DNA from: a virus
Strand: one strand, 5' to 3'
IMG/VR virus record: IMGVR_UViG_3300002242_000614
Coordinates: 3,381-57,485 of that record
Length of the DNA: 54,105 bases
Below, one piece after another: positions 1-41,315 of this stretch (positions are counted from its first letter, which is position 1; the number at the start of each line of letters is the position of its first letter). The position numbers were made by a program, and so were the translations under genes. The notes beneath the pieces were generated by a model, which saw only the letters and a list, made by a program, of their open reading frames with translations, did not search any database and was not told the origin of the DNA.

Positions 1-1757
1 TTTGACATCTTATACATTATATTTTCATTTTTATTTTTATTGCTCCGGACACAAGTTATTCTATTGAAATTTCTCATAAAATATCTATGATTTTTTAAAT
101 ATCTTTTTGGCATAATTGAATATTCATAATCATTAAAGATTTTTCCATATGAAAATCCATTGTTCAAAATATTAATATTATTGATTAATTGAAGTTTTCC
201 GCTGTTTAATTCTATAATAGAAGATGTATCAAAATATTTTTTCTCATTAAGTGAAAAGAAATTAGACGCCACATAAATTCCTTCTCTATAATGCTCAGTT
301 AGGAGTATTTCATCCCCGCTCTTTATTCTTACTCTAGATCCAAAATAAGAATAAAAGACTTTCTTATTGAAAGGGCGAATAATTTTTTCTATATTTTTAT
401 TGTAAATAAGAGTGATAAATTCTTTATCTTCACTCTTCAAAGTTATGGTTTTTATTTTTTCATAATTTCTTATTTTTTCTACTCTAAGAATTTTACTATT
501 TTTTGATGGCCATATAACTATTTTGCCTTTTTTGAAAAATGAGACCTTTGGCTCATACATGTAATTTTTTCGCTGATTTTTAATGATTTCAGCATATACT
601 GGAGGTGTTAAACTTATTTCCACAACTCTATCTTTTTCCAGGATGTTAGCTGTAATGACAACTTTATTCAAATAATTCAAAAACGCAAAACTATCTTTTT
701 CCACAATTTTTTCGATCAAAGGATCTTTTTCTTTTGTCTTATTTTCTATATTTCTTTTTATTTTATTGCTTATTCTATATGTTGCCCCCAGTATTTCATA
801 TTCATATTTGCCTATCTTAAAGGTATCATATTTATTATAAACAACAGAATTTAAAATTAAATCAGTGCAATGTTTAGTTTTTCTGCTGTAAACTACCTTG
901 GATAAATAATCATCCAAGCTCAAAAAATCCATATTGCTCTCATCAATAAAATGAGATGTTTTATGAGCAGGGATTAATTCTTCTGTCATAATCAAATATG
1001 AATTTTTCTCGCTTATTTTATCCCATAAGAAATAACTCCCATAAAATGTTTCTTTTTTCATATAATCTTCTATAACTTCTCTTAAATCATCATTAAAAAT
1101 ATTCCCCCAATAATTTTCAATTTCTATCCAAACATCTGTAAGAGATTCAAAAGTAGGTTCGTCGTGGCTTCCCAAACAATTTCTAAAATCTCTTTGCATA
1201 TTTGGAAAAGGAGGATAAAATATCATATCATCTAGAGTTTTTAATGGGGAAGGTCTAAACCCAACTCTAAAATCATAGCATAGAAACTTATCATCAGTGG
1301 GTCTAATTAATTTTATAAAATAAACAACATAGGGAAAAAATAATTCAAATTTCCAGGCTTTGTCCGTTTTTTTAGAACCATCATTCAGTCTTGAATTAGA
1401 AAAATATTTTCTGGCCAGTCTGGTAATATATTTTTTTGGTTTCGCTACCGGTGTCCTTTTTAACATTTCATGAATTATCTCAGAATCTATATCAAAATAA
1501 ATTGTTCTTTTTCTGGGAGGCTCCTCCAAAATCATATAAATTCCATTATTAATATGGTTCTTATATGTTTGGATATATTTGATCCCATCAGGCAATATCT
1601 GATTTTCTATTGTCATTATACTTTTTGGATTCGTATAATATTTTCTGACTTCCTTATCGAAATCAATTTTGCTCATTATTTCTATCTGTTGCGGTTCATG
1701 ATCTGTTCTTTTCTTAGGATAAAGATAAACCCTATCGTTTTCAAATTTGATATCCAT
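1..1757 (-). CDS. Large protein of unknown function, C-terminus beyond window
   Basis: An open frame starts at ATG 1757 and runs without a stop past position 1, giving at least 585 residues. A purine-rich site (rc AAAGGGAG) lies about 7 bases before the ATG. I do not recognise the family. The visible part is rich in aromatic and basic residues, has no obvious membrane segment or signal peptide, and contains a stretch around residues 160-230 rich in Phe, Pro, Asp and Trp (RDFRNCLGSHDEP lies in it). It is transcribed in the same direction as, and 24 bases after, the SbcC-like gene, so it probably belongs to that replication/recombination run. The frame was read by hand and may hold small translation errors, but no internal stop was seen. 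Confidence 0.75.
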   Translation of the reverse strand, partial: MDIKFENDRVYLYPKKRTDHEPQQIEIMSKIDFDKEVRKYYTNPKSIMTIENQILPDGIKYIQTYKNHINNGIYMILEEPPRKRTIYFDIDSEIIHEMLKRTPVAKPKKYITRLARKYFSNSRLNDGSKKTDKAWKFELFFPYVVYFIKLIRPTDDKFLCYDFRVGFRPSPLKTLDDMIFYPPFPNMQRDFRNCLGSHDEPTFESLTDVWIEIENYWGNIFNDDLREVIEDYMKKETFYGSYFLWDKISEKNSYLIMTEELIPAHKTSHFIDESNMDFLSLDDYLSKVVYSRKTKHCTDLILNSVVYNKYDTFKIGKYEYEILGATYRISNKIKRNIENKTKEKDPLIEKIVEKDSFAFLNYLNKVVITANILEKDRVVEISLTPPVYAEIIKNQRKNYMYEPKVSFFKKGKIVIWPSKNSKILRVEKIRNYEKIKTITLKSEDKEFITLIYNKNIEKIIRPFNKKVFYSYFGSRVRIKSGDEILLTEHYREGIYVASNFFSLNEKKYFDTSSIIELNSGKLQLINNINILNNGFSYGKIFNDYEYSIMPKRYLKNHRYFMRNFNRITCVRSNKNKNENIMYKMS

Positions 1758-1781
1758 TCTAAACTCCCTTTCATTTTTGGT

Positions 1782-3941: not shown

Positions 3942-3952
3942 ATCACGTCTCC

Positions 3953-4990
3953 TTACTTTTCGCTGAAATATTTGAGTCCAATTTCCTTATATTTTTCGAT
4001 TTTACTTTCATCGATATTTTTATATGCTAAATACGCATTGATAATTTCTTCATTGCTGGAATATGATGATATATCTGCTCTCTTTTCAATATCCAATTCC
4101 CTTTTATCAATAAGATTGACATCATCCATTGAAGAAACTGATTCGTCAATTTCCGAAAGATCATCCATATCTTCTTTTATAACAATATTTATTTCACTTT
4201 CTTCGTCTGAATTTTTTAATTTTTTTGCCTCCCTCAGCATTTCATTTTTATTTTCATTTGTGATAACAAACTCATACAATTTTTTATAGCCGACCGTAGG
4301 CACAGATTCAACTTTATCAGTCTCTGTATCAAATATTAAAAATCTTTTTATTTCATTTTTTTCACCTTTTGTTAATTGAATTATAGACCCTGCGTAAAAA
4401 CATTTTATTCCTTTATCTATAATTTCTTGGGGCAGATGATAATGTCCAAGGAAAACATTTTTATATTTCCCCTTAAGATCAGATAACTTAATATCTGTTC
4501 TTATGCTCAAACCGGAATTCACCATAGCTTCATTTAAACCAAAATGAGAATACAATGTTCTTGCCGTGTTTTCTTTTATATATTCTGCCATTCCATTGAA
4601 ATAAGGAACATATAAAATATCATTTTCTTTATCCTGATACGGCTCCATATAGACATTCACATTTGGTTCATATTTTAATCCGAGAAGACAAGACGTTGGA
4701 TTATCTCCCTTGCTTGAAATATCGTGATTGCCTTGCAGACAATTAAAAGTCAAATTTGGATAAGATCTAATTATATTTAAAAAAACACTTTGCGCTAAAG
4801 AATATATTAAAAATTTATTATGATAAATATCTCCAAGAATATCTATTGTTTTAATATTATTTTCCATTGCATAATCGCAAATATTCGTGAAAGTTCTCTT
4901 CAGATAAAAAAGTTTTTCTGGTAAACCTTCTTTTATTTTTCCGGCAGAATAAACCGAGAAATGCAAATCCGCTACAATTATACGTTTCAT
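3953..4990 (-). CDS. sbcD: SbcD/Mre11-like nuclease (T4 gp47 type)
   Basis: This is the calcineurin-like metallophosphoesterase partner of the SbcC-like ATPase. Metal-binding motifs are in the usual order: D8-x-H10 (VADLH), GD at 53-54, GNHD at 87-90, a histidine in YSHFG near 150, and GHYH near 196-199. The C-terminal third is acidic and low complexity (about residues 250-300) and is probably the capping or partner-binding region. Its start overlaps the helicase stop by four bases (ATGA), and a strong site (rc AAAGGAG) precedes the ATG. The helicase, SbcD and SbcC genes therefore form one tightly coupled operon, as expected for a recombination module. Confidence 0.95.
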   Translation of the reverse strand: MKRIIVADLHFSVYSAGKIKEGLPEKLFYLKRTFTNICDYAMENNIKTIDILGDIYHNKFLIYSLAQSVFLNIIRSYPNLTFNCLQGNHDISSKGDNPTSCLLGLKYEPNVNVYMEPYQDKENDILYVPYFNGMAEYIKENTARTLYSHFGLNEAMVNSGLSIRTDIKLSDLKGKYKNVFLGHYHLPQEIIDKGIKCFYAGSIIQLTKGEKNEIKRFLIFDTETDKVESVPTVGYKKLYEFVITNENKNEMLREAKKLKNSDEESEINIVIKEDMDDLSEIDESVSSMDDVNLIDKRELDIEKRADISSYSSNEEIINAYLAYKNIDESKIEKYKEIGLKYFSEK

Positions 4991-6405
4991 TTTTTCTCCT
5001 TTCCTGTATTTTTCAATATATTATAAATATCAGATTTTTTTATTTTCTCTATTTTACCATTTTCCAAAACATTAAAAATATTAATATCTCCGCATCTTTT
5101 CTCATAAAAATCAATCCTGCGATGTATTGATCTGGATATATTTGAACAACCAATATCCACAATGTCAATTAATAATGGTTCTTTTTTCCCAGGAGCATTT
5201 CTTGAAATTCTTCCGCATAGTTGTTCAATATTTCTAATTGGGACAAAGATAATGGCTGAGTCTAAACTGGGGCAATCCAATGCGTCCCTGCATTTCATAG
5301 TTGTAGAAAAAATAATGCGCGAGTCTAATGCAGAAGAATCCGAATTAATAATAAATTTTGATTTATCTTCAAATGGAATCATTGAAAACAATTTATCAAT
5401 GATAGCATGTTGTTCTCCAAATAATATTATTTTTCTCCCATTTTTATACATCTTTTCAGTTATTTTCTTAATGAAATTTAATAATTTATCACTCTTTCTG
5501 ATTTGTTTTATATATCTTGATCTTTGAAATTTATTATTCCAATATAGATATCTTTTCGAAACTCCTTTCGTTATTCCAAAATCCATAAGAAAAATATAAA
5601 CATTTGGCGGGGTCGTTCCTTCCGCGTCTTCATTCTTAATAATATTTTTGAAATGATATTTGATTATTCTTTCTGTTGCCGTGGCGTTGAATGGAGTTGC
5701 GGAAGCCCCCCAATATCTTTTTGAAAAGATATTTAATGAGCATATTGAAAAGGTAGGAGCTCCGACCGTGGTATGGAGTTCATCATAAACCGAAAGCCCC
5801 AAACCTGAATTTTGAATTCTTTTACGGAAATCTTTTATTTTTAAAAGACTTCCGACTTGCTGAACTGTTGAAATTATTATTGGCTTTTTTAAATCATCTT
5901 TATATGTTTTTCTTTTCAAAATGCCAATGTTCTCTTCTTTAATATCCGTGAAAGACAGAAGTCTTTCTTTCCATTGTCTAACAATAAAATCTCTGTGAGT
6001 TAAAATTATTGTTTTTTCTTTAATGGTGCAAATTCCTTGGATAATTATAATTGTTTTCCCAGAGCCAGGAGGAGATTGCAAAATAACATTGTCATATTTT
6101 ACAATCTCCTCCATTAATTTTTTCTGGGCATCGCTTCTTGGTTTTATTTTTGATTTAATCTTAATTTTTTTGGCGTGTGGGTTCTCATCAATAATATTTA
6201 TTTTTCCCTTTATAAAATTTTCTATTGGATAATATCTTGGAATCAATAGAAAATCTTCAGTTTGTTGATAATAAGGAATATATGAAAAATCATTATCTTG
6301 ATAATTCCTTTTTATAACAAATAAATCTTGTTTAATCTTTTGAACCCATTTCTCACCAAAATATTTTTTATCTATCATGATTGAAGATTTTCTATTAAAT
6401 TCCAT
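4987..6405 (-). CDS. uvsW: Superfamily 2 helicase, UvsW-like
   Basis: A DEAD/DEAH-type helicase of 472 residues. Walker A (SPPGSGKT) is near residues 114-121, the DEAH-box variant DELH near 207, motif III GASATPF near 233, and motif VI (QLCGRISRN) near 405. The N-terminal hundred residues precede the helicase core and may form a substrate-binding domain, as in T4 UvsW, which unwinds R-loops and moves branches in recombination intermediates. The start at 6405 has a site (rc GAAGGAT) 8 bases upstream. Four-base overlap with the SbcD-like gene supports a shared role in recombination. Other RecG/UvsW-like SF2 helicases cannot be excluded. Confidence 0.88.
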   Translation of the reverse strand: MEFNRKSSIMIDKKYFGEKWVQKIKQDLFVIKRNYQDNDFSYIPYYQQTEDFLLIPRYYPIENFIKGKINIIDENPHAKKIKIKSKIKPRSDAQKKLMEEIVKYDNVILQSPPGSGKTIIIIQGICTIKEKTIILTHRDFIVRQWKERLLSFTDIKEENIGILKRKTYKDDLKKPIIISTVQQVGSLLKIKDFRKRIQNSGLGLSVYDELHTTVGAPTFSICSLNIFSKRYWGASATPFNATATERIIKYHFKNIIKNEDAEGTTPPNVYIFLMDFGITKGVSKRYLYWNNKFQRSRYIKQIRKSDKLLNFIKKITEKMYKNGRKIILFGEQHAIIDKLFSMIPFEDKSKFIINSDSSALDSRIIFSTTMKCRDALDCPSLDSAIIFVPIRNIEQLCGRISRNAPGKKEPLLIDIVDIGCSNISRSIHRRIDFYEKRCGDINIFNVLENGKIEKIKKSDIYNILKNTGKEKK

Positions 6406-6410
6406 TACAA

Positions 6411-7373
6411 TTATCCTTCTAAATTTTCAAGTTTATATGGAATTGATTCCTCCCAGGTTTTCCCATATTTTATACCACCTCGTTTTCCGACAAAGATATA
6501 TTTGCCCCTTTCTATCCCTGAGATAAATTTTACATATTTATCTGTTTTTTCTATTTTCCTTAATTTCTTTTCTTTGGATAGAAATTCACAAATAATATCT
6601 CGTTTTAATATCTTCTTGTTCTTATCATTGGAGTCTATTGAGGTGGATTTTCTTGGTCTTCCTCTTTTTGATTTTCCTCTGGGGGTGTCTCCATTTCCGT
6701 CATCTCTTTTTTCTCCGCCATCTCCTGTGGATTTTCTTGGTCTTCCTCTTTTTGATTTTCTTTTGGCGGGGATTCCGGTTGTGATTTGTTCCCCATCATT
6801 TTTTTCAGTCGTTCCATCATTTGGTTTTGATTCATCCCCCCTTGCTTCATGAGTTCCTTCATTTTTTTTCTCAGCTTTTTCATATTTAACTTTTTCTTTT
6901 TTCTTTCTGGGCCTTTTTTTCTTTTGCTCTCCGGAAATTGAAACATTTTCTTTTTTCTTGCTTCTACTTTTTGTTTTTTCTTTTTCTTCATTTATTGTCT
7001 CCTTATTATTGAATGATTCTAACTGTTTTTGTATCTTTTTATTTTTGCGTTTTAATTTTTTATTTACTTGTTCAATATTTTTTTCAATTGGGTAAGTCAT
7101 TAAATCCAATATTATTTTCTTTTCTTTACAACCGTAAACGCAAGAATCGTTTACACTTTGTCTATAAATACACGCTTCTGTATGCATAAAGCATTCCAAC
7201 TTTTTGCACCAGAATATTTTCGTTATAGAAAAATTTTCACATATTGGATGTCTACTATTTACCCAATCCCCAATATAGTCACAATATTTTTCTACTGATT
7301 TTTTTTTATCGGTTACCCATTCTATTCTCTTTTTTCTGTTTTCATTAAAAAATTTGCAATATTTACATTTCAT
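6411..7373 (-). CDS. Cys-rich protein with AT-hook DNA-binding motifs
   Basis: A 320-residue protein in three parts. Residues 1-90 hold a cluster of cysteines and histidines (CKYC near the start, then C..C..C up to CVYGC), probably binding metal. The middle, about residues 95-245, is very basic and low complexity, with two clear AT hooks (KRGRPRKS) and a weaker one (KRPRKKK). The last 75 residues look folded and end in an aromatic/basic stretch. AT hooks bind the minor groove of AT-rich DNA, which fits this genome. It follows no known phage protein I can name. It lies 5 bases upstream of the UvsW-like gene in the same operon, suggesting a nucleoid, replication or packaging-associated role. 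Start ATG 7373 follows rc AAGAGG. Confidence 0.85.
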   Translation of the reverse strand: MKCKYCKFFNENRKKRIEWVTDKKKSVEKYCDYIGDWVNSRHPICENFSITKIFWCKKLECFMHTEACIYRQSVNDSCVYGCKEKKIILDLMTYPIEKNIEQVNKKLKRKNKKIQKQLESFNNKETINEEKEKTKSRSKKKENVSISGEQKKKRPRKKKEKVKYEKAEKKNEGTHEARGDESKPNDGTTEKNDGEQITTGIPAKRKSKRGRPRKSTGDGGEKRDDGNGDTPRGKSKRGRPRKSTSIDSNDKNKKILKRDIICEFLSKEKKLRKIEKTDKYVKFISGIERGKYIFVGKRGGIKYGKTWEESIPYKLENLEG

Positions 7374-12970: not shown

Positions 12971-15900
12971 TTAAACTCTCCCTAAACCCATAACTTTCAT
13001 ATAAGCATTTAATAAATCTTTCGTAGGAGAAACTCTTGGTTCTTTAAATCTTGTTTCTCCTTTTAAAATAATATCTGAAATCATTTCATTTTTTGTTTTT
13101 AAATCATCAGACAATGGACCAAAAAATTCTTTTAATAAGTGAGGTGCATTATATGTCAATAATGAATAAACTTCGCCTTCGCCCATTTTTTGGCCACCTT
13201 CTCTCCTTTTTCCAGCAGTTGGCTGGCCAACCTTTGTTCTTGGGCCAATATTTCTAGAATGAACTTTTTTTCGGCCGATGTGTTCCAGTTTGAAAAAATA
13301 CATATATCCAACTGGAACTTTATTATATGTTTTTGTTCCAAATTCAGGCATATTTAAAAAATAGCCATCTTTCAATCCCAGAATACTCATAGCTTTGAGA
13401 ATGTCATCATATTTTGGGGCTTTAAATGGAGGAATAATAATTGGAAAAAACCCATGTTCTTGAATTCCATTTTTTATTTTATCAAAATCACTTTTAGAGG
13501 CTGTTTTTATTTTATTGATAAAGCCACTGGATAAATTTCTGTTCTCTGTTTTATCTAAAATTGGCAAAACTTTTGACAATATTTTAACTGCATCGTTCTT
13601 ATTTGATTTAATAATCATATTTCCTAATTTTTTAGAAATCAAACCCGTATATAATTCATAAAATTGCCCAACATTGATTCGGTTGATAATTCCAATAGGA
13701 TTAACGATTATTTCCAAATGTTCTCCCCAAGGAGTCATTGGCATATTTTCTTCTTTTTCAACCAAAGAAATAATCCCTTTGGCCCCGTATCTATTGGTAA
13801 GCTTATCTCCTACACCAATTTTTAATGGACTTTCAATTTTAAATTTAATTAACATTCCTTTTATATTTTTTCCTCTTACCGTATATTTTGTTTTCCCTTT
13901 TCGTTTATGTAATCTATCTGTTTTTTCTATATATTTTTTTACCAATGGATAATCATCAGGATCTAAATTTGAAAATACTTCAATATCAACAATCTTACCG
14001 CCGGGACTTCTTAACAATAAATCTTTTCCTTCAATATAAATTCCCTCTGTGTCTTCTTCTTCAAATCCTAACAAAGATTCAATTTCGCCAACAGATTTTC
14101 TGACCAAAATATCTCCAGGTTCTGTGAAAGTTCCTTTTTCCGCAATAAATAATAAACGATCATCTTTTTCTACAGTAAAATCCAAAACAACCCCATGCAA
14201 TGATGTCAATGCATCATTTTTAACTAATTTATCACTTATGACAATTCCATCCTCAAAATTATATCCTTTATATTCCATCGCTCCAACAAGTAAATTTTTT
14301 CCCATAGATAACATACCATTTTTAATAAATGAACCTTCGGCAATAATTTGATTTTCTTTAACAGCTTGTTTTTCTTTCACAGTTGGTCTAAAAACACTTA
14401 AGCTATTTACCCCAGAACCAGAATGTAAATGTGCAGGAGTTATGGGAATTATTTCTGTCTCTTTATTCTTTTTAGATTGAATTTCTATGGCTTTATCATC
14501 AACAGAAATGACCTTGCCATCAAACGGACTTCTTTTAATGAATGCGTCAGATAAATATGAGGTCAAGATCGATTCATAACCAGATTGAACGGCAGGGGGT
14601 TCCGGTTCTTTAAGCGAAATAGTTTGTTTCATCTGATTTGATAACAAAATAACTCTTGGGCCATCATTATTTTCAATAAAGGGAACTTGACATGTTGTGG
14701 TTGAAAGCATCCCAGAATATTCTTTATCATTTATTTTTTTTATATTTATAAGTCCTCTCGCAGAAGTAATATTAGCATCAATCGCCAGATGCTGAACCAC
14801 ACCAATATTTCCACCTTCTGGAGTATCCAAAGGATCCACATTTCCAAAATATGAACTATGAATATTTAATGCAGAACCTTGGATTGCTCTTTTATCTGGA
14901 ATTCCGCCAAGATTTTTCCCAACCATGGTAATTCGTGTCAATGTGGCCATTTCTTCAGTTGGATTTGAATATTCCATATTTGTGACAAGCTGAGAATTAA
15001 CAACTTGACTTAATAATTTATTTGGATCTATTTCGAGTTTTGCATCCTCATTTCCAGCCAAAACTTTCGCTCGATATTCACTATATCCCCCATGAAATAG
15101 AGATTGCATTAAAGAAACAATAATTTCTGAACCTCTAACCCTTTGTTTGCTCAAATCATTTCTATCTTGTGCGTATCCAATAACAACTCTAGACGCCATA
15201 TATTCAATAATATCTTCTAAATCATATGGAAGTCTTTGATTTATTAAAACTTGTTTTGTAACAGGTTCAACGATATTTTTTACTGTGACATCGATAAGAT
15301 AAACAGATGATATTTTTCCAGTATCTTCTATTATCAATTTATTGAAATATTCTTTGGACGGAAATTCACTATCAATATTATATTTGCTTGGAGAAGCGTT
15401 TATAAACGAAACGCAAAGCTCATGTTTTAGCTGATTATCCACATTTTCAAAATGGACATATTTATCGGCTGATATTTTTACAAAATAATCGTCTTTTTTG
15501 CCTTTTTGATCATCAATATAATATTTTATGCCATATCTTTTGAGTGTGCGATCCCAACCATAAACATAGCTCAAAAATAACAGAAGAGGAACTTTAAAAG
15601 AACCAAAATAAATTTCTAAATATTGTAAATATTTAGTTCTTTTAGACCAAATATGAAATGATGAATATGCACTTTTAAATTTTGAAAAATATGGTTTTGG
15701 GAAAGATATTGGATTTAAAATAATTTGATTGATCAAGCATTTTTTTTGGCCGTTGACCAAAAATGTCCCATCCTTTTCATTTATTTTTGGAATCTTAAAA
15801 GATATTTCATGCACATTTTTATTTTTATCTATAAATGTCGCTTTAACTTCAGAGACATCTGACTTATCAACTTCAGTGGGTTTTTCTTCCACATGATTTA

Positions 15901-17089
15901 TTTCTAGTTTTTTTAATTTAAGAGGAACATCTCTATCACTTACAGTGCTTAAAACATTTTTAATATCTTTCTCTAAATTTATTGAAAAATCAATCTTGCG
16001 TTTTTCAAATAAATGAGATGGTGCCTTTTTATTTACCGCAACGGGAATATTATATTTTCCAATAGTCGGATCTGTGGAATTATTTTTAGCGGGCTCTTTA
16101 ACAAGCATTTCATCCAAATAATATTTATCTATAACTCTCACATTATTATCAACCTGACTAGGTAATGACAATTTATCTATTTTCTCAATAGTTTTTTTAT
16201 TTGCATTTAAATGCCTCAAAACCGCTTTGATTAATAATTTCTTCCTATTTAAATTATCTACTTCTTTGTCTCCACTCTGTGCCACCTTATCAAAAGTTTC
16301 TTCTATTTCTTGTGGAGGCATATCTTTTATATATAAAGAAACTATTTTTTTATATTTAATCTCGTCTTTTTTATCTATTGGCATATCTTTGGAAATAGTT
16401 TCAACTGTCTTTTCAATAATATCTTTAGCTTTTTCAGAATATTCTTTAATTGATGGAAGAACACTTGTTCTTCTCAAATAAATAAATATTTTTCTAATAT
16501 CAAATTGTCTATCTTTTACTAATAATCTATACTTTGTTGAATCTTCATCTATTTCGCCGAAAAATAAATGATCAAAATATATTCCATTTTTTTTAATATC
16601 ATTTAAAATTGCATATATTTTTCTATCCATAAATTTTGGAATTGGATTTGTTTTATCTATCGTATATATTAATATTTTTTTATATCCATCAGGAATTGTA
16701 TTGAACATTGTTCTCAAATAATTCTCTAAAATTGTTCCTGCTCGCTGTCTATAATTTTTAGGTTTTAATTTTTCTTCTATCATTTCTAAAAATGGACTAA
16801 GATCCAAAAATAGAATATTCTTCCCTTTGGGAATTGCTTTTGAAGAATACACTATGAATTTTTTATCTCGGTATTCTTTTCTGATTTCATTTGTTAGCAT
16901 TGTCCTTGGATATCTGGTCACGGGAACGACTATATTTCTTATCTCAACATGTTTAAAATTTAATTTATCCACATTTTCAAGAAAAGATGAATTTTCTCCC
17001 ATGTATATTATAAAATATTTATTTTTATCGATAAAAGATATATTTTTTACAATAGTATAGTATTGTTTTATCGTTGATAATTTACGCAT
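12971..17089 (-). CDS. rpoB: RNA polymerase beta subunit homologue, full length
   Basis: A 1372-residue homologue of bacterial beta (E. coli 1342). The N-terminal third is strongly diverged. From about residue 700 the conserved core is plain: the fork/rifampicin-pocket region (LDTPEGGNIG near 755), YKGYNFEDG near 940 (E. coli GYNFED), GDKLTNRYGAKG near 1092, and a C-terminal clamp region with GYMYFFKLEHI and KRREGGQKMGEGEV near 1270-1300. Active-site lysine and acidic positions appear retained. It starts one base into the beta-prime stop codon (TAATG), so the two are translationally coupled, in the reverse of the usual bacterial rpoB-rpoC order. Unlike phiKZ-type phages, whose polymerase subunits are split, this one is intact. 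No alpha, omega or sigma gene is recognised in the window. Confidence 0.97.
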   Translation of the reverse strand: MRKLSTIKQYYTIVKNISFIDKNKYFIIYMGENSSFLENVDKLNFKHVEIRNIVVPVTRYPRTMLTNEIRKEYRDKKFIVYSSKAIPKGKNILFLDLSPFLEMIEEKLKPKNYRQRAGTILENYLRTMFNTIPDGYKKILIYTIDKTNPIPKFMDRKIYAILNDIKKNGIYFDHLFFGEIDEDSTKYRLLVKDRQFDIRKIFIYLRRTSVLPSIKEYSEKAKDIIEKTVETISKDMPIDKKDEIKYKKIVSLYIKDMPPQEIEETFDKVAQSGDKEVDNLNRKKLLIKAVLRHLNANKKTIEKIDKLSLPSQVDNNVRVIDKYYLDEMLVKEPAKNNSTDPTIGKYNIPVAVNKKAPSHLFEKRKIDFSINLEKDIKNVLSTVSDRDVPLKLKKLEINHVEEKPTEVDKSDVSEVKATFIDKNKNVHEISFKIPKINEKDGTFLVNGQKKCLINQIILNPISFPKPYFSKFKSAYSSFHIWSKRTKYLQYLEIYFGSFKVPLLLFLSYVYGWDRTLKRYGIKYYIDDQKGKKDDYFVKISADKYVHFENVDNQLKHELCVSFINASPSKYNIDSEFPSKEYFNKLIIEDTGKISSVYLIDVTVKNIVEPVTKQVLINQRLPYDLEDIIEYMASRVVIGYAQDRNDLSKQRVRGSEIIVSLMQSLFHGGYSEYRAKVLAGNEDAKLEIDPNKLLSQVVNSQLVTNMEYSNPTEEMATLTRITMVGKNLGGIPDKRAIQGSALNIHSSYFGNVDPLDTPEGGNIGVVQHLAIDANITSARGLINIKKINDKEYSGMLSTTTCQVPFIENNDGPRVILLSNQMKQTISLKEPEPPAVQSGYESILTSYLSDAFIKRSPFDGKVISVDDKAIEIQSKKNKETEIIPITPAHLHSGSGVNSLSVFRPTVKEKQAVKENQIIAEGSFIKNGMLSMGKNLLVGAMEYKGYNFEDGIVISDKLVKNDALTSLHGVVLDFTVEKDDRLLFIAEKGTFTEPGDILVRKSVGEIESLLGFEEEDTEGIYIEGKDLLLRSPGGKIVDIEVFSNLDPDDYPLVKKYIEKTDRLHKRKGKTKYTVRGKNIKGMLIKFKIESPLKIGVGDKLTNRYGAKGIISLVEKEENMPMTPWGEHLEIIVNPIGIINRINVGQFYELYTGLISKKLGNMIIKSNKNDAVKILSKVLPILDKTENRNLSSGFINKIKTASKSDFDKIKNGIQEHGFFPIIIPPFKAPKYDDILKAMSILGLKDGYFLNMPEFGTKTYNKVPVGYMYFFKLEHIGRKKVHSRNIGPRTKVGQPTAGKRREGGQKMGEGEVYSLLTYNAPHLLKEFFGPLSDDLKTKNEMISDIILKGETRFKEPRVSPTKDLLNAYMKVMGLGRV

Positions 17090-20000
17090 TATATTTTTTC
17101 CCCTGTCAAAACCTTTTCCAATGGAGATGGAGATGTGTCTTTATACAATAATCCGTAACTTATTGCTTTATTTATATTTTCAAATTCTAAACCTTGAATA
17201 AATCCTGTTAAAAATACAATTTCTTTAATATTGGCAAAAGCAGGATTCCATTTTTTCCCTAACCTGGCAGGGATATGCATATTGTCTGCATCTCTTAAAA
17301 TGTTGGAAATCAAAACTTCAATATGAATTTGTTCAACATTTTTCAGAGATTTAATTGTCAATAATTTCCTAAGTATTTCTTCTGGAGTTTTATGTATTTT
17401 TTTACCGGCCAATAATCCTTCAACAAAAGGAAGCTTTGCTTTTAGATCTCCAACATCGATTGGTATTGATAAAAATAATATATCTTTATTTATAAGAATT
17501 TCCAACTCTTCTTTCGTATGCTTAGAAATTTCTCCATAATTGGCTAATTTTACTGTGTAATCTAAATTTACATCTAAAACAAACCCGTCTTCAAATTCCA
17601 AAACTCCAATCAAAGATTCCAGCAATATTCCATCGTCATCAAAAATAATTGTTTCGTTTTCGACATAATTTTCTAAATCTATTTTTAATTTAGCATCTAA
17701 TTTCGTTCCAATTTCATTTTCTTCTTGATAAATATATTTCGACAACGTTTTTCTATCTATCGATTCTAAAAGATTATCTAATATGTCCCCAATTATATCT
17801 TTCTTTTCAATTTTAACTGATGTGTCATGAAATGTACTCATCATAAACTGAGTGATTCGTTCACTCAATGTCTGAGCCGCCAAAACTCCTACGAAAGGAG
17901 ATCCATGTTTATATAAAAGTTCACCATAACAAGTATGGCATAATTGTTTACTTTTACAATATATTGGAGTTCTTAATTTTATAATGTCGCCAACTTTTTT
18001 TGTTTCCGGATTAAACAAAACTGGTTTTCCATTTTCAATAATATATCTCCCATTTAATTTTTTCATATTCGAGGAATCCAATTTTAAAACTAATGTTCTA
18101 TCTGTTCTGCAATCTTTTAAAGTTTTGTTTAGCTCAACATCATTCAATAAATACACAAGTTTCCTAGCAAAATATCCGGTGCTTGCTGTATTAACAACTC
18201 TATTAATAATTCCTCGTCTGGCAGATGCAGATGCATTGAAATATTCAGAATTTGATAATCCTTCTGAAAATGAGCTCGTAACTGTTGGCAATAAATTTCC
18301 CTCAGTATCTAAGACAATACCTTTTGCAGCCAATAATTGCATTGGCTGGGACCACCCCTTCGTGGCTCCAGCTTCTACCAAATCATTAAAAGGAGTTTTT
18401 TTCAAATTATCTTTGACAATATTATGTATTTCATCCAAAACTTTCTGAGAATTCTCAGGATCATTAACATCAATCTTTTTCTTCAATTTTTTAACTTTTT
18501 CAGGAAGTTCTAAATTTTTAAGGGTAAATGAATATGGATATAAAGTTGCATATTTGAATGAAATTTTTTGAATTCTATAAAAAACTTCTTTCATTGTTTT
18601 TTCATCATATTTTTTATATACTTCTAAAAAAATATCTTTCATTTTTGATTTATTCACCGTGTAATCTATAAATTTAAAATCCATCGGAAAACAACTATTA
18701 AAAATTGCTTTTCCTATGGTAGTTTTTCTCCCCTTAAAAAATGTTCCTTTATATATGTCTGTTTCTTGAGTTAATTCTTCTACGTTCCGGAAAGTTTTAA
18801 AAGGCTGAGATGGCGGCACATTTTTTGTAAGAACATGAACCCCACTTGCCATCCCCATAGATATTGAAGGCAATAAATCTGCAAAAGAAGAACTGGAATT
18901 TAATTTCATCAATTTCATTTTAGCCTCATTTTGAGCTTCTCTCGAAAGAGGCAAAAATATCGCCATCTGGTCCCCATCAAAATCTGCATTAAAACTTCCA
19001 ACTATCAATGGGCACAATTGAATCGTATCCCCATCCCATATTTTAATTTTAAAGGCCCTGATGCTTCCAAAATGAAGAACTGGGTCACGTTTAGTTATGA
19101 TGACCCTATCTTCAGAAACTCTATTCGCAGATTCAAAAATTATGGCTTTTAATTCTTCATCGATTTTTTCACCATTTTTAATAAATTTTAAAACTGTCTT
19201 TAAAGAATCTATATTAAAATCAACACCAGTTGCCTTTTTTACCAATTCTTTTAATTTTTCTCTGTCTGGATAATTATTGGTATAAACAAGATCGTGAATA
19301 ATATATGGCATTAAAATTGTAGTTGCCATGCGCAAAGGGATTCCAATCTCATCTGGTTTTAAATTTGGATTTGGTGTTATGACCGCACGCCCCGAAAAAT
19401 CCATTCTTTTCCCTAATAATTGTTCTCTTATGATTCCGGTTTTTTTTGAAATTTTAGTTTTTACATATTCATTTAAAGCTAAAACAGATTTTTGAACCCC
19501 GTAATTTAAAACATTATAAAGTTCTTCCTTTTCATTTGTTTTGCTTACTTGCGTAGATTTCTTTATTATATCTATGTAATAATCATTGATCTGATCAATC
19601 ATCCAAAGGCCATCTTCATCTTTATATGCCGGGCGAAATTCTGGCGGAATCACAATTACTCTCTGAATCCCCAAAAGTTTTTTATCATACATTTCATTTA
19701 AAAATTTAATATATTTTTCTCGTGTAGGTGTCTCGCCCCTTAATTTTATTTTTTTAAAATTATTTAGAAAATCAGTTATTCCAATTATTGCGCCTTCTTC
19801 ATCTTGTTCACAAGGAACCAAAGAGCCGTCGGATTCAATTTTAAAATAAGATTCTGTTGAAAATAAACTTTTTAAATTCCTTTGCAATTTAATTAAAATA
19901 TCATATATCACCGGATGTATGACTGTACAATATAAATCTATATAGGCATATGTTTTCTGTCTATCAGAAGAACCTTCAGGACCAAAAATTTTTTCAGAAA

Positions 20001-20100
20001 GAAGTCCATCGTCATCAAAATTTTCACCAGAAAATAAAATATGAGATTTGACTTCCATAAGATTTTTGGTGAAAGCATTAATGTCCATTATCTTTATCAT
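17089..20100 (-). CDS. rpoC: RNA polymerase beta-prime subunit homologue
   Basis: A 1003-residue homologue of bacterial beta-prime (E. coli 1407). Present are the lid/rudder-region sequence RMDFSGRAVITP near 229-240, the catalytic magnesium motif NADFDGDQM near 369-377, bridge-helix and trigger-loop segments (EGLSNSEYF and STGYFARKL near 615-645), a zinc site (CKSKQLCHTCYG near 713) and QFMMSTFHDTS near 750. The N-terminal zinc ribbon of bacterial beta-prime is missing: GLLSEKIFGP runs straight into a segment without the cysteine pairs. The C-terminus stops soon after the EVLISNILRDA segment, without an obvious omega-binding tail. It is a compact but complete catalytic subunit. Confidence 0.97.
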   Translation of the reverse strand: MIKIMDINAFTKNLMEVKSHILFSGENFDDDGLLSEKIFGPEGSSDRQKTYAYIDLYCTVIHPVIYDILIKLQRNLKSLFSTESYFKIESDGSLVPCEQDEEGAIIGITDFLNNFKKIKLRGETPTREKYIKFLNEMYDKKLLGIQRVIVIPPEFRPAYKDEDGLWMIDQINDYYIDIIKKSTQVSKTNEKEELYNVLNYGVQKSVLALNEYVKTKISKKTGIIREQLLGKRMDFSGRAVITPNPNLKPDEIGIPLRMATTILMPYIIHDLVYTNNYPDREKLKELVKKATGVDFNIDSLKTVLKFIKNGEKIDEELKAIIFESANRVSEDRVIITKRDPVLHFGSIRAFKIKIWDGDTIQLCPLIVGSFNADFDGDQMAIFLPLSREAQNEAKMKLMKLNSSSSFADLLPSISMGMASGVHVLTKNVPPSQPFKTFRNVEELTQETDIYKGTFFKGRKTTIGKAIFNSCFPMDFKFIDYTVNKSKMKDIFLEVYKKYDEKTMKEVFYRIQKISFKYATLYPYSFTLKNLELPEKVKKLKKKIDVNDPENSQKVLDEIHNIVKDNLKKTPFNDLVEAGATKGWSQPMQLLAAKGIVLDTEGNLLPTVTSSFSEGLSNSEYFNASASARRGIINRVVNTASTGYFARKLVYLLNDVELNKTLKDCRTDRTLVLKLDSSNMKKLNGRYIIENGKPVLFNPETKKVGDIIKLRTPIYCKSKQLCHTCYGELLYKHGSPFVGVLAAQTLSERITQFMMSTFHDTSVKIEKKDIIGDILDNLLESIDRKTLSKYIYQEENEIGTKLDAKLKIDLENYVENETIIFDDDGILLESLIGVLEFEDGFVLDVNLDYTVKLANYGEISKHTKEELEILINKDILFLSIPIDVGDLKAKLPFVEGLLAGKKIHKTPEEILRKLLTIKSLKNVEQIHIEVLISNILRDADNMHIPARLGKKWNPAFANIKEIVFLTGFIQGLEFENINKAISYGLLYKDTSPSPLEKVLTGEKI

Positions 20101-27691: not shown

Positions 27692-28003
27692 TTATTTTTT
27701 CTTTATATTAATAACTTTCCCGGAACTTTCATCATGTTCCATGACAAATAAAACTCCGCTTTCTGGAATCACAACAACAATATCATTTCCTATTTTAACT
27801 TCCATTGCATTCATTTGTAGGGATGTTATAAGATCTCCCACTTTAACTTCTTTGACATCCTCCCCGACTGAAATTACTTGATAAATACTTTGATTTATCT
27901 TTTCTTGAACTGACTCAGGAATAATAATTGAATTATTATTTTCGACTTCTAATTTAATTTCCTTGCAAACGATTTTATCCATGACAGCTTTGTATTTAAA
28001 CAT
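27692..28003 (-). CDS. GroES-like co-chaperonin
   Basis: A 103-residue protein with the GroES beta-barrel pattern: an N-terminal strand (YKAVMDKIVCKEI), a mobile-loop region at about 22-36 with IIIPESV, then ISVGEDVKEVKVGDLI near 45-60 and a C-terminal ESGVLFVME. GroES-type proteins cap GroEL, and phage versions such as T4 gp31 adapt the host chaperonin to fold the capsid protein. The gene overlaps the bS21-like gene by 8 bases, linking translation and folding. No GroEL gene is in the window, so it would have to work with the host chaperonin. Confidence 0.82.
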   Translation of the reverse strand: MFKYKAVMDKIVCKEIKLEVENNNSIIIPESVQEKINQSIYQVISVGEDVKEVKVGDLITSLQMNAMEVKIGNDIVVVIPESGVLFVMEHDESSGKVINIKKK

Positions 28004-28304: not shown

Positions 28305-31300
28305 TTATAATGAAATATTATCAAATCCAAAAATATGATCCAATGAATTTTTTCTTGGGTTTCTTTCAACCTCCTGTGCTTTAAATATTGGTTTCAATAA
28401 ATAATCTTTTCTATCTTCAAATGCAAATTTCATATTCGCATCTATATCAATAATAAAATATTCTGGCAATCTTTTTTCTTCATATGGCAATGCAATCATA
28501 TTCAAATTTTTTACAGAAGAAGAATATGAAATAAATTTCTTAGCTATATCTTTGCCTGCTTTCTCTTTGTCAATCCCTTTTATTTTAAAAAGATATCCTT
28601 TGGAAGATGGTATATGATAATCATAAACCAATTCATTCCAAGCCAACATTGCCAAAACAGCGGGCGGGACTTGTTTATAATCATCAATTGGTTTATTCCA
28701 AGTCGCTGGCCTGGCAATTCTTGGATCTCCGGAAACAACCATATTTAAAAACTTCTTTCTTTCAGTTCTTATAAACTCTTCTATCTCTTTCAAGGAAATT
28801 TCATCGTTATATAAAATTATATGTAATAAATCTTTTAAAAATCTTTTACTTTCAGATGGAAAATCAGATCTTCTGATTTCAATTCCTCTATTCACAACTT
28901 CATCTATTTTTTTACCTTCCTGAAAAATAACTCTTGTTGAATATCTCTTTTTCGCAAGAAATATTCCTCTTCTTATGATAAGCTCATTTTTAAGATTTAC
29001 AAAATTATGCTCATCCGGATTAATATTATGTTTTCTAATAATATTGGTCATAATATTATTATTCAAAAAATCTTGAATTTTTTCACAGCTTTCTAAAACA
29101 TATTCCACCGTTTGTTTTTCTTTTGGAAAATCATTGAATGAAATAAAAATAGAATCTGTATCACCAGTTACAATATATGGATATTTTTCAGCATCCATCT
29201 CTTTAGAAAAAAAGGTATCTTCATCCAAAGGATTTGGCTCTACATATTTGCCTTTATTTAAAGAATCCATAAAGGCATTGCCATAAATAATAGATGATTT
29301 GGTTACTTCTTGACCAGACAAAGTTATTGCTTCTGACATGGATAAATTATAAAATCTAAAATTCTTATTAGAAATAATTCCATAAAGCGCATTGGCCAAA
29401 ATTTTATACGCTTTCTGTCTTATATCAAAAAATTTGGATACATCTTTGTTTCCTTTTTCTTTCTCATCTAACATTTTACTTTTATACCCTTTTCTTTTCT
29501 TTATAAGAGATTGTAATATTTCTGAATAATATGAAAGCTTTTTATTATAGGATGTAAAAAAACATCCATTAATTGTTACAGAATATTTTTGTTCGGAAAT
29601 TTCTTTTAATAAATCTGTTTTTTTTATTTTTTCAACATTATCATTGATGAGAGGCTTTCTGATTATTTCTAATTCATCTGGCAATTCATCGGGATTATAA
29701 ATTAAATTAAAACCATATTTTTCATTTTTTAATTTTAATTCAAATGTTTCCACACCAATATTATATTGCATAATCATACTTGGATACAAACTTGTAAAAT
29801 CCAAATCTGCAAGCCAATCATAAATTCCTGGAATTGGTTCAAGAACAAATGCGCCTTTATTTTTTCTAATCTGTTTCACGTCAAGTGCATTCCGCACAGT
29901 ATAACCATGTTTTCTCAAATTAGAAATAACCGTGCTATCTACAAAACCAAATGGGCTTGAATAACTGAATGTTGTATTACAAACGGCTCTCAATTCATCA
30001 AACAAATCTATGTGGCAAACTTTTTTCTCAATATCTTCAAGCAATTCAACATCTCGAATATTGTATTCTATCGCTTTATTTATATCATGATAAAAAACAT
30101 AATTAAATCCCTCTTCTATCTCAATCTTAGTTTTATCCAGTTCAACATTTCCTATGTATCCCAATTTATAACTTTCTCGTTTATTTTGATTAAATCGTTT
30201 ATACAATTCCAATTGGTCAACAACAACATATCCACAAATATTGAAAATATTTGCTTTTTTATTTATATAAACTTTTCTAAACGGAGATAATAGATTTGTA
30301 TCCATGCCTAAATTTTTTAATCGATTATAAATATATAAAATATCAAATTGTTTAAAATTCCAACCAGAAAGAAAATCCGGGTTCATTGAGTGAAGATCAT
30401 TTATCATAGCAAGCAAAAGATTTTTTTCCGATTTGAAAGTTTTCAAATCCCATTTTTCAGGCGCATCAATTTTATTTTTATCGCATTTATTATTGGAATC
30501 CAATAAATAGGTTATATATCTCCCGTTGTATTTTATTGTGGCCATAACAATTGGATATTCTGCTTTATCAGGAATAGGGAAATTTCCTCGATCCCCATTC
30601 ATAGTCGAAGCAACTTCGATATCGCAATACCATATATTTTTATTGCCAGGATTTGCCTCACCTTTATTTTTAGAATAATAATCAATAGAATGTTTAACAG
30701 TTGGATCAATATCTCCTTCAAAAATATTGTCTTTGTCCGGAAAAAATTCTGAATATTCTATTTCTTTTAACTCCAATTCATCAAAAGCACATATTTTTCT
30801 CCCATCATCATTTCTTAAAATATAATAAGGATAAATATTTGGAAGTTGATGAAAAATTTTTCTATTCTTTTTATCTCTAAAAATATATAAAATTTTATCT
30901 CCCAGTGATTGAATATCAACCAATTTATAATTATCTGTGTAAAATTTATCTGGAAGATCAAATGTTTTCATTCCATTTTTTTGTTCGCCATCTTCCTTTT
31001 GAGATTGTTCTATTTCGATAGGTTTCCCTTTTTCCAAAAAGGTTTTTATTTGTTTAAAATTTTCTTCATATAATGGAAGCATAGTTTTTTGTTTTCTTAA
31101 AATATAAGAAGGATGATATATGAAAAAAATATCATAACCATTCCATTTTTTAAACTTTCCAACTAGTTGATTTATTTTTTCTGGGAAATCAAAGGCAAAA
31201 GCTCCGCTTCCACCCATAATGACAATTAATTTTGGGTTACAGGTTTCTATTATTTTAAATACATTTTTTCTGCAATTTAGTATCGTGTTTATAGATGGGT

Positions 31301-31586
31301 TTCCCGTTCTCCCATCTGGGAGGAGAGTTTGACAAAGAACAACATTTGTTATTAAATAATTAATTTTATCCAAATTAAATTTGCGAAAAAAATTTCTAAA
31401 GAGTCTTCCACTTCTACCAACTAATGGCTTGCCTCTCAAAGTTTCTGTTTTGCCGGGATTCTCAGCAATATAAATTACATCAACTTTAGATAAATCATCT
31501 TCACAGTTTGTTTCAAGAATGCATGAAGGAGCATTTATTAATTCGCAAGAAAAACAATCTGCTTGTGATTCAATTATTGAAAACAT
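28305..31586 (-). CDS. Uracil-DNA glycosylase - family B DNA polymerase fusion
   Basis: A 1093-residue fusion. Residues 1-190 are a family-4-type uracil-DNA glycosylase: four iron-sulfur cysteines (C11, C14 in CFSC; NVVLC and ILNC near 105 and 125), AENPGKTE near 47-54, GKPLVGRSG, and the HPSYILR motif near 158. The polymerase follows: exonuclease I YCDIEVAS near 318, exo II SGWNFKQFD near 395, exo III YNIRDVELLED near 490, motif A DLDFTSLYPS near 590, motif B with NALYG near 730, and motif C TGDTDS near 803. All catalytic acids are present, so it should be an active replicative polymerase with proofreading and a built-in uracil sensor. It is the only DNA polymerase seen in the window. Confidence 0.95.
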   Translation of the reverse strand: MFSIIESQADCFSCELINAPSCILETNCEDDLSKVDVIYIAENPGKTETLRGKPLVGRSGRLFRNFFRKFNLDKINYLITNVVLCQTLLPDGRTGNPSINTILNCRKNVFKIIETCNPKLIVIMGGSGAFAFDFPEKINQLVGKFKKWNGYDIFFIYHPSYILRKQKTMLPLYEENFKQIKTFLEKGKPIEIEQSQKEDGEQKNGMKTFDLPDKFYTDNYKLVDIQSLGDKILYIFRDKKNRKIFHQLPNIYPYYILRNDDGRKICAFDELELKEIEYSEFFPDKDNIFEGDIDPTVKHSIDYYSKNKGEANPGNKNIWYCDIEVASTMNGDRGNFPIPDKAEYPIVMATIKYNGRYITYLLDSNNKCDKNKIDAPEKWDLKTFKSEKNLLLAMINDLHSMNPDFLSGWNFKQFDILYIYNRLKNLGMDTNLLSPFRKVYINKKANIFNICGYVVVDQLELYKRFNQNKRESYKLGYIGNVELDKTKIEIEEGFNYVFYHDINKAIEYNIRDVELLEDIEKKVCHIDLFDELRAVCNTTFSYSSPFGFVDSTVISNLRKHGYTVRNALDVKQIRKNKGAFVLEPIPGIYDWLADLDFTSLYPSMIMQYNIGVETFELKLKNEKYGFNLIYNPDELPDELEIIRKPLINDNVEKIKKTDLLKEISEQKYSVTINGCFFTSYNKKLSYYSEILQSLIKKRKGYKSKMLDEKEKGNKDVSKFFDIRQKAYKILANALYGIISNKNFRFYNLSMSEAITLSGQEVTKSSIIYGNAFMDSLNKGKYVEPNPLDEDTFFSKEMDAEKYPYIVTGDTDSIFISFNDFPKEKQTVEYVLESCEKIQDFLNNNIMTNIIRKHNINPDEHNFVNLKNELIIRRGIFLAKKRYSTRVIFQEGKKIDEVVNRGIEIRRSDFPSESKRFLKDLLHIILYNDEISLKEIEEFIRTERKKFLNMVVSGDPRIARPATWNKPIDDYKQVPPAVLAMLAWNELVYDYHIPSSKGYLFKIKGIDKEKAGKDIAKKFISYSSSVKNLNMIALPYEEKRLPEYFIIDIDANMKFAFEDRKDYLLKPIFKAQEVERNPRKNSLDHIFGFDNISL

Positions 31587-31601: not shown

Positions 31602-31639
31602 ATTGCCCCTTATGAAACCGAAGTTCCATAAGGGGCAAT
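31602..31639 (-). terminator. Hairpin between DnaJ-like and polymerase genes
   Basis: A perfect 13-base inverted repeat (ATTGCCCCTTATG and complement) with a 12-base loop. On the minus strand it is not followed by a clear T-run, so it may act as an RNA-processing or stabilising hairpin, or as a weak terminator. Confidence 0.7.
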
Positions 31640-32208: not shown

Positions 32209-32787
32209 CTATGAAGTGGATTTTTCAAATTCAACTATTTTAAAATTATCTTGGAGGAATTTTTTAAGTGGGATTTTTTTATGAGGGGTTTTATTTTCAA
32301 TAGATTCAATTTTTTTATGTTTTCTCGTTTTCTTTTTTCCTTTTATTTTACGTTTACTATAATTTTGTTTTAAGCCAAGATTTTTATAAATATCATTTTT
32401 ATTTTCATCTGCTAATATTTTATCAATCAATATTTTTATTTCATAATTTTTTAAGAGAGGAAATTTTTCTTCAACAAATTCTTCCAGATTTGTCTTTTTC
32501 TTTCCCTTTAAAAAATATGTGACTTCATTTCTTTTTACTCTAAATCTTAAAGTCATTTCTTTAATAAATCTAAACATTTCTTCTTTGTCTATATAAAATA
32601 GACTCATATTATTCATATATTTATCTAGAAAATAATTTAATTCTGGATTACGAATGAATACTTTGATGAGGAATAAATTATTGATTGGGGATTTATATGA
32701 GGATAAATGTATGCCATTCCCATAAGTCGGAATTTCAGAATTCAAATCGCCATCGAAAACCCAGTTTATAAAAGTCTTGTATGGCAT
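32209..32787 (-). CDS. Hypothetical protein with basic C-terminal region
   Basis: A 192-residue protein. The first 110 residues look folded with many aromatics. Residues about 140-175 are a Lys/Arg stretch (KRKIKGKKKTRKHKK) that could bind nucleic acid. The family is not recognised. A site (rc AAAAGGTG) precedes the ATG. It ends just before the promoter-like motif of the DnaJ-type gene. Confidence 0.7.
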   Translation of the reverse strand: MPYKTFINWVFDGDLNSEIPTYGNGIHLSSYKSPINNLFLIKVFIRNPELNYFLDKYMNNMSLFYIDKEEMFRFIKEMTLRFRVKRNEVTYFLKGKKKTNLEEFVEEKFPLLKNYEIKILIDKILADENKNDIYKNLGLKQNYSKRKIKGKKKTRKHKKIESIENKTPHKKIPLKKFLQDNFKIVEFEKSTS

Positions 32788-33884: not shown

Positions 33885-34289
33885 CTATTTTCCTTTAAAT
33901 AGGATATATTCTTTTTGTTTTGATTTGTTTTTTGAAGATATGTGCTGAACTGAAATTAAATGATACAAGCCTTTAACTTTATGCCCATGAAAATTAATCG
34001 CAATGTGTTTTTTATCAAATTTTAAAATTTCACAAGATCCACCATCAAACTTTTTAAATGTTCCTGCTCCATAACCACTTTTCAATACGCCTGTAAATGT
34101 AGCGTCTGCATATGAATGATCATTTGTTCTAATGGCAAGAACTTTAACTCCAGTTGTGAGAGGGACTCTTTTCTTAACGGCAAAAGATGCCCACATAGGA
34201 CTATTTGGGAGTTTAAATCTTAAATCTTGATGTTTGCCAGCCTTCAATGCATTATGGTCAATGACAACAAACTCGGATACTTTATTCAT
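33885..34289 (-). CDS. Stand-alone LigD-type 3-prime phosphoesterase domain
   Basis: A 134-residue protein matching the phosphoesterase domain of LigD: FVVIDHNALKAGKHQDLRFKL near 7-27 (LigD FVVQ.H.A..LHYDFRLE), WASFAVKK near 33-40, RTNDHSYADATFTGVLKSGYGAGTF near 54-78 (LigD EDHPL.YA.FEG.IP.G.YGAG), and GLYHLIS near 107. The expected metal and phosphate ligands (His, Asp, Arg of HQDLR; His of NDH) are in place. Such domains trim 3-prime phosphates or ribonucleotides from DNA ends. It is three bases downstream of the RuvC-like gene. The matching LigD polymerase domain is separately encoded at 20581-21270. Confidence 0.85.
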   Translation of the reverse strand: MNKVSEFVVIDHNALKAGKHQDLRFKLPNSPMWASFAVKKRVPLTTGVKVLAIRTNDHSYADATFTGVLKSGYGAGTFKKFDGGSCEILKFDKKHIAINFHGHKVKGLYHLISVQHISSKNKSKQKEYILFKGK

Positions 34290-40607: not shown

Positions 40608-41315
40608 TTATTTTTTGTATGTTCTTAATTTTGCCAACTCTTCTGCATATCCATAAATATGCAAACCTTTTGAAGCCGCAACAATTGGGCCTGCCTCAAT
40701 TCCAATTTCATCAGCCATATATTTTTGAAGAACTGCAATACCTGCTAAATTTGCTGGAAACCCCCCCCATAAATCCCATGATCTGAAATAGGGATAAAAA
40801 ATAAGTTTTTCATTTTTTATAATTTTTATATCAATGTGTCTCAAACACGGAGGATCAGAAAGCTTAGAATCAGTTGGTTGACCAACCTGCAAAATGGCTT
40901 GATTCGTATTTGGGGTTTCTTTTAGAATATTTATCCAATATTCGATTTGATTATAATATTCATCGGAATTAATATCTTTAACTTTACAAATTCTTTCACC
41001 ATATGTGTATTCTTCATTTTCTTTTTTAACTGATGATAAAAGATACGGAAGATATTGTTCAACATATCCGGCTTCGACTGGATCTGGGATATTTAAATGT
41101 GCAGGAATCTTTGGAAGCATACTATCATACGGCTCTGAATATGGATGTTCTATTAAAATAGTTGCCCAGTCAAATTCAATCCTTTTTTCTCCCACAAACG
41201 AACCATATTGGACTTCATACTTTCTCCCAAAATCAATAATATTATAAACACACTGAAACCAAGCATCCGGAATGTTTGTTGCTCTGATGAAAATCGGGTC
41301 CAGATATTTTGTCAT
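40608..41315 (-). CDS. ThyA-family thymidylate synthase
   Basis: A 235-residue protein of the thymidylate synthase / dCMP hydroxymethylase family, of the shorter type. The catalytic cysteine C157 is in DPPCLRH, followed by the phosphate-binding FRSWD (177-181), GGFPANLAG (184-192) and the HIY motif (219-221). The residue that discriminates the base appears to be Asn (N189), as in thymidylate synthases; dCMP enzymes have Asp there. It therefore probably makes dTMP from dUMP with methylene-tetrahydrofolate. dUMP-consuming activity fits a phage whose polymerase carries a uracil glycosylase. Confidence 0.82.
   Translation of the reverse strand: MTKYLDPIFIRATNIPDAWFQCVYNIIDFGRKYEVQYGSFVGEKRIEFDWATILIEHPYSEPYDSMLPKIPAHLNIPDPVEAGYVEQYLPYLLSSVKKENEEYTYGERICKVKDINSDEYYNQIEYWINILKETPNTNQAILQVGQPTDSKLSDPPCLRHIDIKIIKNEKLIFYPYFRSWDLWGGFPANLAGIAVLQKYMADEIGIEAGPIVAASKGLHIYGYAEELAKLRTYKK

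Follow-up and report, generated by a model that had tools for sequence, protein, structure and literature searches.

The locus studied here raises the question whether a phage DNA polymerase can carry its own uracil-DNA glycosylase (UDG) within one polypeptide, and what such a domain would do at the site of DNA synthesis. We analyzed the window, i.e. the whole stretch of 54 105 nt, which belongs to a 57-kb virus record that is probably a fragment. In this window an open reading frame at 28305–31586 encodes a protein of 1093 amino acids without an internal stop; its coordinates had been given correctly in the initial annotation, from which the strand was missing. It is the minus strand, as for all window coordinates given below.

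One reading frame for a glycosylase and a polymerase

Three Pfam matches were found in the protein, all over their cut-offs: UDG at residues 34–172 (PF03167; E = 3e-18, 66.6 bits compared to a cut-off of 24.3), DNA_pol_B_exo1 at residues 310–477 and DNA_pol_B at residues 551–942. From the Pfam match, a match to the solved structure 1ui0, AlphaFold2 and Foldseek we assigned residues 1–186 (31029–31586) to an N-terminal iron–sulfur UDG domain. It is followed by a linker (residues 187–206; 30969–31028) with low AlphaFold2 confidence at 193–201, and by the N-terminal domain of a family B polymerase (PolB; residues 207–309; 30660–30968), which was delimited by alignment with T4-type polymerases and by AlphaFold2. 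The 3′–5′ exonuclease domain (about residues 310–530; 29997–30659) contains the motifs DIE, GWNxxxFD and YNIRD, and the palm, fingers and thumb (28308–29996) contain SLYPS, KxLANALYG and DTDS. Exonuclease motifs I–III and polymerase motifs A, B and C are thus all present, and the initial description of a complete proofreading family B polymerase joined to a UDG holds for this protein. The closest solved structures by sequence are T4/RB69 gp43 for the polymerase and Thermus thermophilus (Tth) UDGA, 1ui0, for the UDG (E = 1e-16). Structure prediction, which had been proposed as a check, agrees with this assignment: using an alignment of viral loci as input, AlphaFold2 modeled the full chain with a mean pLDDT of 90.4, a pTM of 0.78 and a break at 193–201, and Foldseek matched the whole-chain model to RB69 gp43, while the UDG half modeled alone (pLDDT 93.5) gave 1ui0 as best Foldseek match (TM 0.80). 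This architecture links a family-4-like UDG domain through a short disordered stretch to a family B polymerase of the T4/RB69 type, which is complete and equipped for proofreading. We also considered a separate UDG-less polymerase translated from Met206. This candidate was dropped, as the nearest Shine–Dalgarno-like stretch lies about 20 nt off and no internal start is conserved, Met206 itself not being conserved. Directly upstream of the gene, before the ribosome-binding region, there is a hairpin (31602–31639) with a 17-bp stem, a UUCG loop and −26.8 kcal/mol, which is possibly a terminator or a translational control element. At the other end of the gene the polymerase C-terminus reads SLDHIFGF (28323–28346) and resembles a T4-type clamp-binding peptide; other members of the clade have short ILTF/LTI tails in its place.

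The search for the same fusion in other family B polymerases, likewise suggested earlier, depended on the query. Scanning viral contigs with a single protein (either the entire protein or its UDG half) returned no fusion relative; a scan with a UDG alignment gave 4 contigs with the same fusion, and after two further scans 37 contigs, the window among them, were known to carry a fused and complete UDG half. These encode 34 distinct proteins, since a few contigs share identical ones, and the contigs reach 312 kb, with others of 277 and 248 kb. Linkers of 22–26 residues were observed at the same junction across the 37 contigs, which come from many datasets, and the G+C content is even across the UDG/PolB junction. 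An assembly error, which the initial annotation had kept in view, is therefore excluded by the 36 further, independent contigs; with the shared junction, the even G+C content and a conserved gene neighborhood, an assembly or annotation artifact that fused two genes is vanishingly improbable. As a test of fixation we scanned with polymerase-only sequences: wherever the contig includes the N-terminus of a clade polymerase, the UDG is found in the same reading frame; three loci (L212, L221 and L241) are without UDG because their reading frames run past the contig end. One of the fusions (L205, DAOVGR010000022.1) comes from a contig of 48.5 kb that had been placed in a Thermoplasmatales MAG. An archaeal host was considered for this reason and rejected: the contig shares the phage gene order, and the window carries genes for bacterial-type bS21 and a β/β′ RNA polymerase, so that L205 is probably a misbinned virus contig.

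Conservation and decay of the active site

For the analysis of the active site we compared the fusions to a set of 89 other viral family-4-like UDGs. The initial annotation had ascribed to the N-terminal half both the four iron–sulfur cysteines and the active-site motifs of family 4; the cysteines are confirmed, and the motifs only in part. C11, C14, C85 and C105, the putative 4Fe–4S ligands, occur in all 37 complete fusions, and the clade has two extra conserved cysteines, Cys22 and Cys116. In Tth UDGa the uracil pocket comprises E41, G42, E47, F54, N80 and H155, with N80 as uracil-binding and H155 as leaving-group residue, and N89 has been proposed to hold water (PMC5387724). Of these, the glutamates are kept as E42 (36 of 37 fusions) and E48 (the equivalent of Tth E47), the uracil-recognition Asn as N81 (31344–31346; 36 of 37), and the catalytic His of motif 2 as H158 (31113–31115), which is replaced by Asn in L193 and by Ser in L242 and is His in all other fusions. 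The remaining positions are changed throughout the clade. Motif 1, which is GE[AG]PG in family 4, reads AENPG in the window protein (A41–G45, including E42 and N43; 31452–31466), and (A/S)ENPG was found in 35 of 37 fusions compared to GE(A/G)PG in 82 of 89 comparison UDGs, so that an Asn stands at the Tth G42 position in 35/37 versus 1/89. At the position of the uracil-stacking Phe (Tth F54) the window protein has L55 (31422–31424); this residue is Leu in 36 fusions and Met in one, compared to 84 Phe and 4 Leu in the comparison set. The Asn of motif 3 (Tth N89) is present in 0 of 29 fusions and in 77 of the 89 comparison UDGs, and the loop of the clade is longer there. Substitutions at the same three positions of Tth UDGa lower its activity by about two orders of magnitude (G42D), about 17-fold (F54A) and about 6-fold (N89A) (PMC5387724).

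The UDG domain also scores below the NCBIfam cut-off for UDG family 4 (TIGR00758; 73.6 versus 125.3 bits). It likewise remains under the cut-off of the UdgX model (TIGR03914; 63.5 versus 189.95 bits), and the KRRIH loop of UdgX with its cross-linking His is absent from the aligned sequences. GxNPG, with Asn at the third position, is motif 1 of MUG, SMUG1 and HDG. In MUG this Asn binds water (PMC5387724), and since the motif-1 Asn of the fusions is of the same type, a relocated water-positioning residue is plausible: judging from the alignment, N43 probably takes over the role of the lost motif-3 Asn.

Next, we considered selection on the two halves. Mean pairwise identity is 60% for the UDG half versus 51% for the polymerase, and dN/dS values are similar (0.06–0.19 versus 0.09–0.22), these being rough, as dS is high for several pairs. 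Purifying selection acts on the UDG half. A loss of catalytic residues, named at the outset as an observation that would speak against the glycosylase, is confined to two fusions, and E42, N81 and H158 are retained together in the other 35 of 37. In L193 (fusion at 1705–4917) motif 1 reads EFPS and the catalytic His is Asn; in L242 (2374–5625) motif 1, the Asn and the His are all lost. The fusion, all four cysteines and the polymerase motifs are still intact in both, and as the two stand apart on the polymerase tree the losses are independent. A search for a second UDG in these two records, which may be fragments, found none. A standalone UDG (305-aa frame) does occur besides the fusion in the 119-kb record L226, and in no other of the 14 records checked. 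Since L193 and L242 lost catalytic residues and kept the domain, a purely catalytic role fails to cover the family; the UDG domain seems to have a value that outlasts catalysis and may do more than excise uracil.

Origin of the fusion and its gene neighborhood

It had been suggested that the fusion might be convergent with the glycosylase-like domains of SPO1-type polymerases, and the trees bear this out. In a UDG tree of 104 domains, a branch of 1.2 changes per column leads to a single clade (100/100) that unites the PolB-fused domains and stands apart from all 26 domains fused to family A polymerases (PolA). As this clade holds no PolA-fused domain, and as the polymerase is of family B and not A, the two fusions look independent. 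The polymerase halves form one clade as well (100/100), in which the window is the first branch. Record L203 encodes at 6001–6675 an unfused UDG of 224 aa with the AENPG and PLVG motifs of the clade, adjoining a 5′–3′ exonuclease gene. We considered it as an ancestral standalone UDG; it nests among the fused domains on the tree, although a sister position is not rejected by an AU test (p 0.39), and it may be a split-off domain.

Outside the viral contigs, in which UDG–PolA fusions are common, no PolB fusion was found in 50 697 phage records or among 72 556 plasmids. With the UDG half as query the phage records returned standalone UDGs and UDG–PolA fusions only, and with the polymerase half T4-type polymerases, all without UDG. 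Another 80 T4-type loci outside the clade, gathered with an alignment of the window polymerase and four cultured-phage polymerases, contain no UDG either and are too distant to inform on the clade. One further T4-type polymerase (L002, 7773–10808) contains an intein-like insert that disrupts motif C (DTDS), starting after DTDSVAGDS and ending in VHN. In openly licensed papers, a coverage with subscription journals mostly outside it, we found no description of a UDG–PolB fusion, and a broad survey of the diversity of PolB (PMC7544198) makes no mention of a glycosylase. UDG–PolA has been described for PaBG and relatives (PMC7412058), and the phiLo polymerase, a UDG–PolA fusion, has a solved structure (PDB 9qhs). 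The fusion of a UDG to a replicase was hitherto known only for family A polymerases. With the distinct PolB fusion, UDG–replicase coupling appears to have arisen independently in the two main phage polymerase families, and the clade offers many natural variants for studying the coordination between excision of bases and DNA synthesis.

The neighborhood of the fusion is conserved. A homolog of the 192-aa protein encoded upstream (32209–32787), for which neither a family nor a PHROG match was found, precedes the fusion in 24 of 27 loci; a GroES-like co-chaperonin (27692–28003) follows it in 20 of 27, and a divergent thymidylate-synthase-like (TS-like) protein (40608–41315), which retains the TS residues PPC, RSxD and the downstream Asn, lies nearby in 19 of 27. 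The window also encodes bS21, a clamp loader homolog, SbcCD, RuvC, an NAD ligase and a 5′–3′ exonuclease, together with a standalone LigD-type 3′-phosphoesterase domain protein of 134 aa (33885–34289) that was found in 5 of 8 related records versus 1 of 14 control genomes. Two large genes of the RNA polymerase β/β′ family (1372 and 1003 aa; 12971–20100), whose nearest named relatives are about 29% identical and occur in Rhizobium phages such as RHph_Y65, are predicted to specify a multisubunit RNA polymerase of the phage's own. Near the fusion, a radical SAM gene occurs in the window and in L198, and the TS-like gene is present in 7 of 8 records. A dUTPase match occurs in one of the 8 records and in none of the other 7, which may be fragments; AP endonuclease 2 was likewise found in one, the other 7, possibly incomplete, giving no match to an AP endonuclease family. 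Exo_endo_phos is absent from eight largely overlapping, possibly incomplete records. No gp45-type clamp was found over the cut-off in 8 records, six of which show weak matches in reading frames of about 1000 aa. All these gene absences carry little weight, given that the records may be incomplete.

Possible function and comparison with known systems

Our preferred reading is a tethered glycosylase for uracil surveillance at the replicase combined with a non-catalytic role of the domain, and on the sequence data we give it about an even chance. Under this reading, large, uncultured tailed phages of one lineage would use the protein as their replicative DNA polymerase, with an Fe–S UDG-like domain covalently tethered to it. 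We infer a position at the fork, where the domain would bind DNA beside the polymerase, flip out and excise uracil or a close deaminated base, most likely dUMP incorporated into nascent DNA out of the dUTP pool, or else template uracil; the abasic site would then be repaired. Uracil sensing at the fork, which the initial annotation had taken the fusion to imply, is in this view a proposed function. A DNA grip or a contribution to holoenzyme architecture would be the second function, which would account for the persistence of the domain in L193 and L242. In favor of the tethered glycosylase we count the fusion on 37 contigs, its fixation, the conserved UDG half and the retained Glu, Asn, His and Cys residues; furthermore the missing dUTPase match in 7 of 8 possibly fragmentary records and the nearby genes for the LigD-type 3′-phosphoesterase, 5′–3′ exonuclease, NAD ligase and RuvC, and, for its non-catalytic part, the two catalytic losses with the fusion kept. 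Against it count the changed G42, F54 and N89 positions, since Tth mutants there lose activity, the family 4 score under the cut-off and the AP endonuclease family in just one of 8 records. Moreover, if uracil were excised from the single-stranded template in front of the polymerase, this would in itself cause stalling.

Two rival readings are both compatible with the data. The domain could be mainly a non-catalytic module for DNA binding or holoenzyme assembly, a built-in processivity element whose glycosylase activity is secondary or absent. This would suit the decayed active sites of L193 and L242, the clade-wide changes at the three Tth positions and the finding that none of 8 records has a canonical gp45 clamp scoring above the cut-off, and there is a precedent in vaccinia D4, which together with A20 forms the poxvirus processivity factor and acts in trans (PMC5682278). 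However, a purely structural role would not demand E42, N81 and H158, which 35 of 37 members retain together, and the window has a clamp loader homolog and a polymerase ending in a T4-like clamp-type peptide; we regard this reading as possible but unlikely. Alternatively, the glycosylase could be active with an altered specificity, ENPG and Leu suiting another deaminated, a mismatched or a phage-modified base. Within the clade both features hardly vary, while they are rare elsewhere, and motif 1 is of the type seen in MUG, SMUG1 and HDG. Compared with family 4, a wider range of bases is processed by UDG families 2, 3, 5 and 6 (PMC5387724). The conserved TS-like gene nearby and the radical SAM gene near the fusion in the window and L198 would fit a modified base as well, but the TS-like protein keeps its TS residues and so gives no pointer to one, and the uracil-recognition Asn N81 is retained; we regard an altered specificity as quite unlikely. 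A bolder combination of these elements, a huge-phage replicase with an integral Fe–S UDG-like fork component in which a hybrid site (family-4 Glu and SMUG/MUG-type Asn) would survey bases with a new specificity and a structural or processivity element would have outlived catalysis twice, appears quite unlikely. As catalysis decayed twice and the domain stayed, UDG roles at forks beyond excision, comparable to that of vaccinia D4, can be tested here in one polypeptide, and a polymerase that combines proofreading with a built-in domain for handling uracil may also be of practical use.

Among known systems, the UDG–PolA phages (SPO1-type; the PaBG/Lupandier group, PMC7412058; Thermus phage phiLo, 9qhs) likewise join an N-terminal family-4-like UDG to a phage polymerase. 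Their polymerase, however, is of family A, and their UDG domains nearly always have GEAPG, and Phe in 25 of 28, whereas ENPG and Leu are found here. Archaeal PolB is also a family B replicase that handles uracil but, as described in the PolB survey (PMC7544198, citing Wardle 2008), relies for this on the N-terminal domain of the polymerase, to which no glycosylase domain is added. T4/RB69 gp43 resembles the window protein in fold, in exonuclease and polymerase motifs and in the T4-like clamp-type C-terminal peptide; it has no UDG domain, and the window polymerase is about 28–32% identical to T4-type phage polymerases. With Tth UDGa (1ui0) the UDG half shares the fold, the four cysteines and the equivalents of E41, E47, N80 and H155, and it differs in G42 to N, F54 to L, the loss of N89 with a longer loop, the extra Cys22 and Cys116 and the fusion to PolB. 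Vaccinia D4 is a family 1 UDG without an Fe–S cluster. In the vaccinia E9–A20–D4 holoenzyme a UDG is likewise physically tied to a family B replicase (PMC5682278), but there it is a polypeptide of its own held via A20, whereas in the phages described here the link is covalent.
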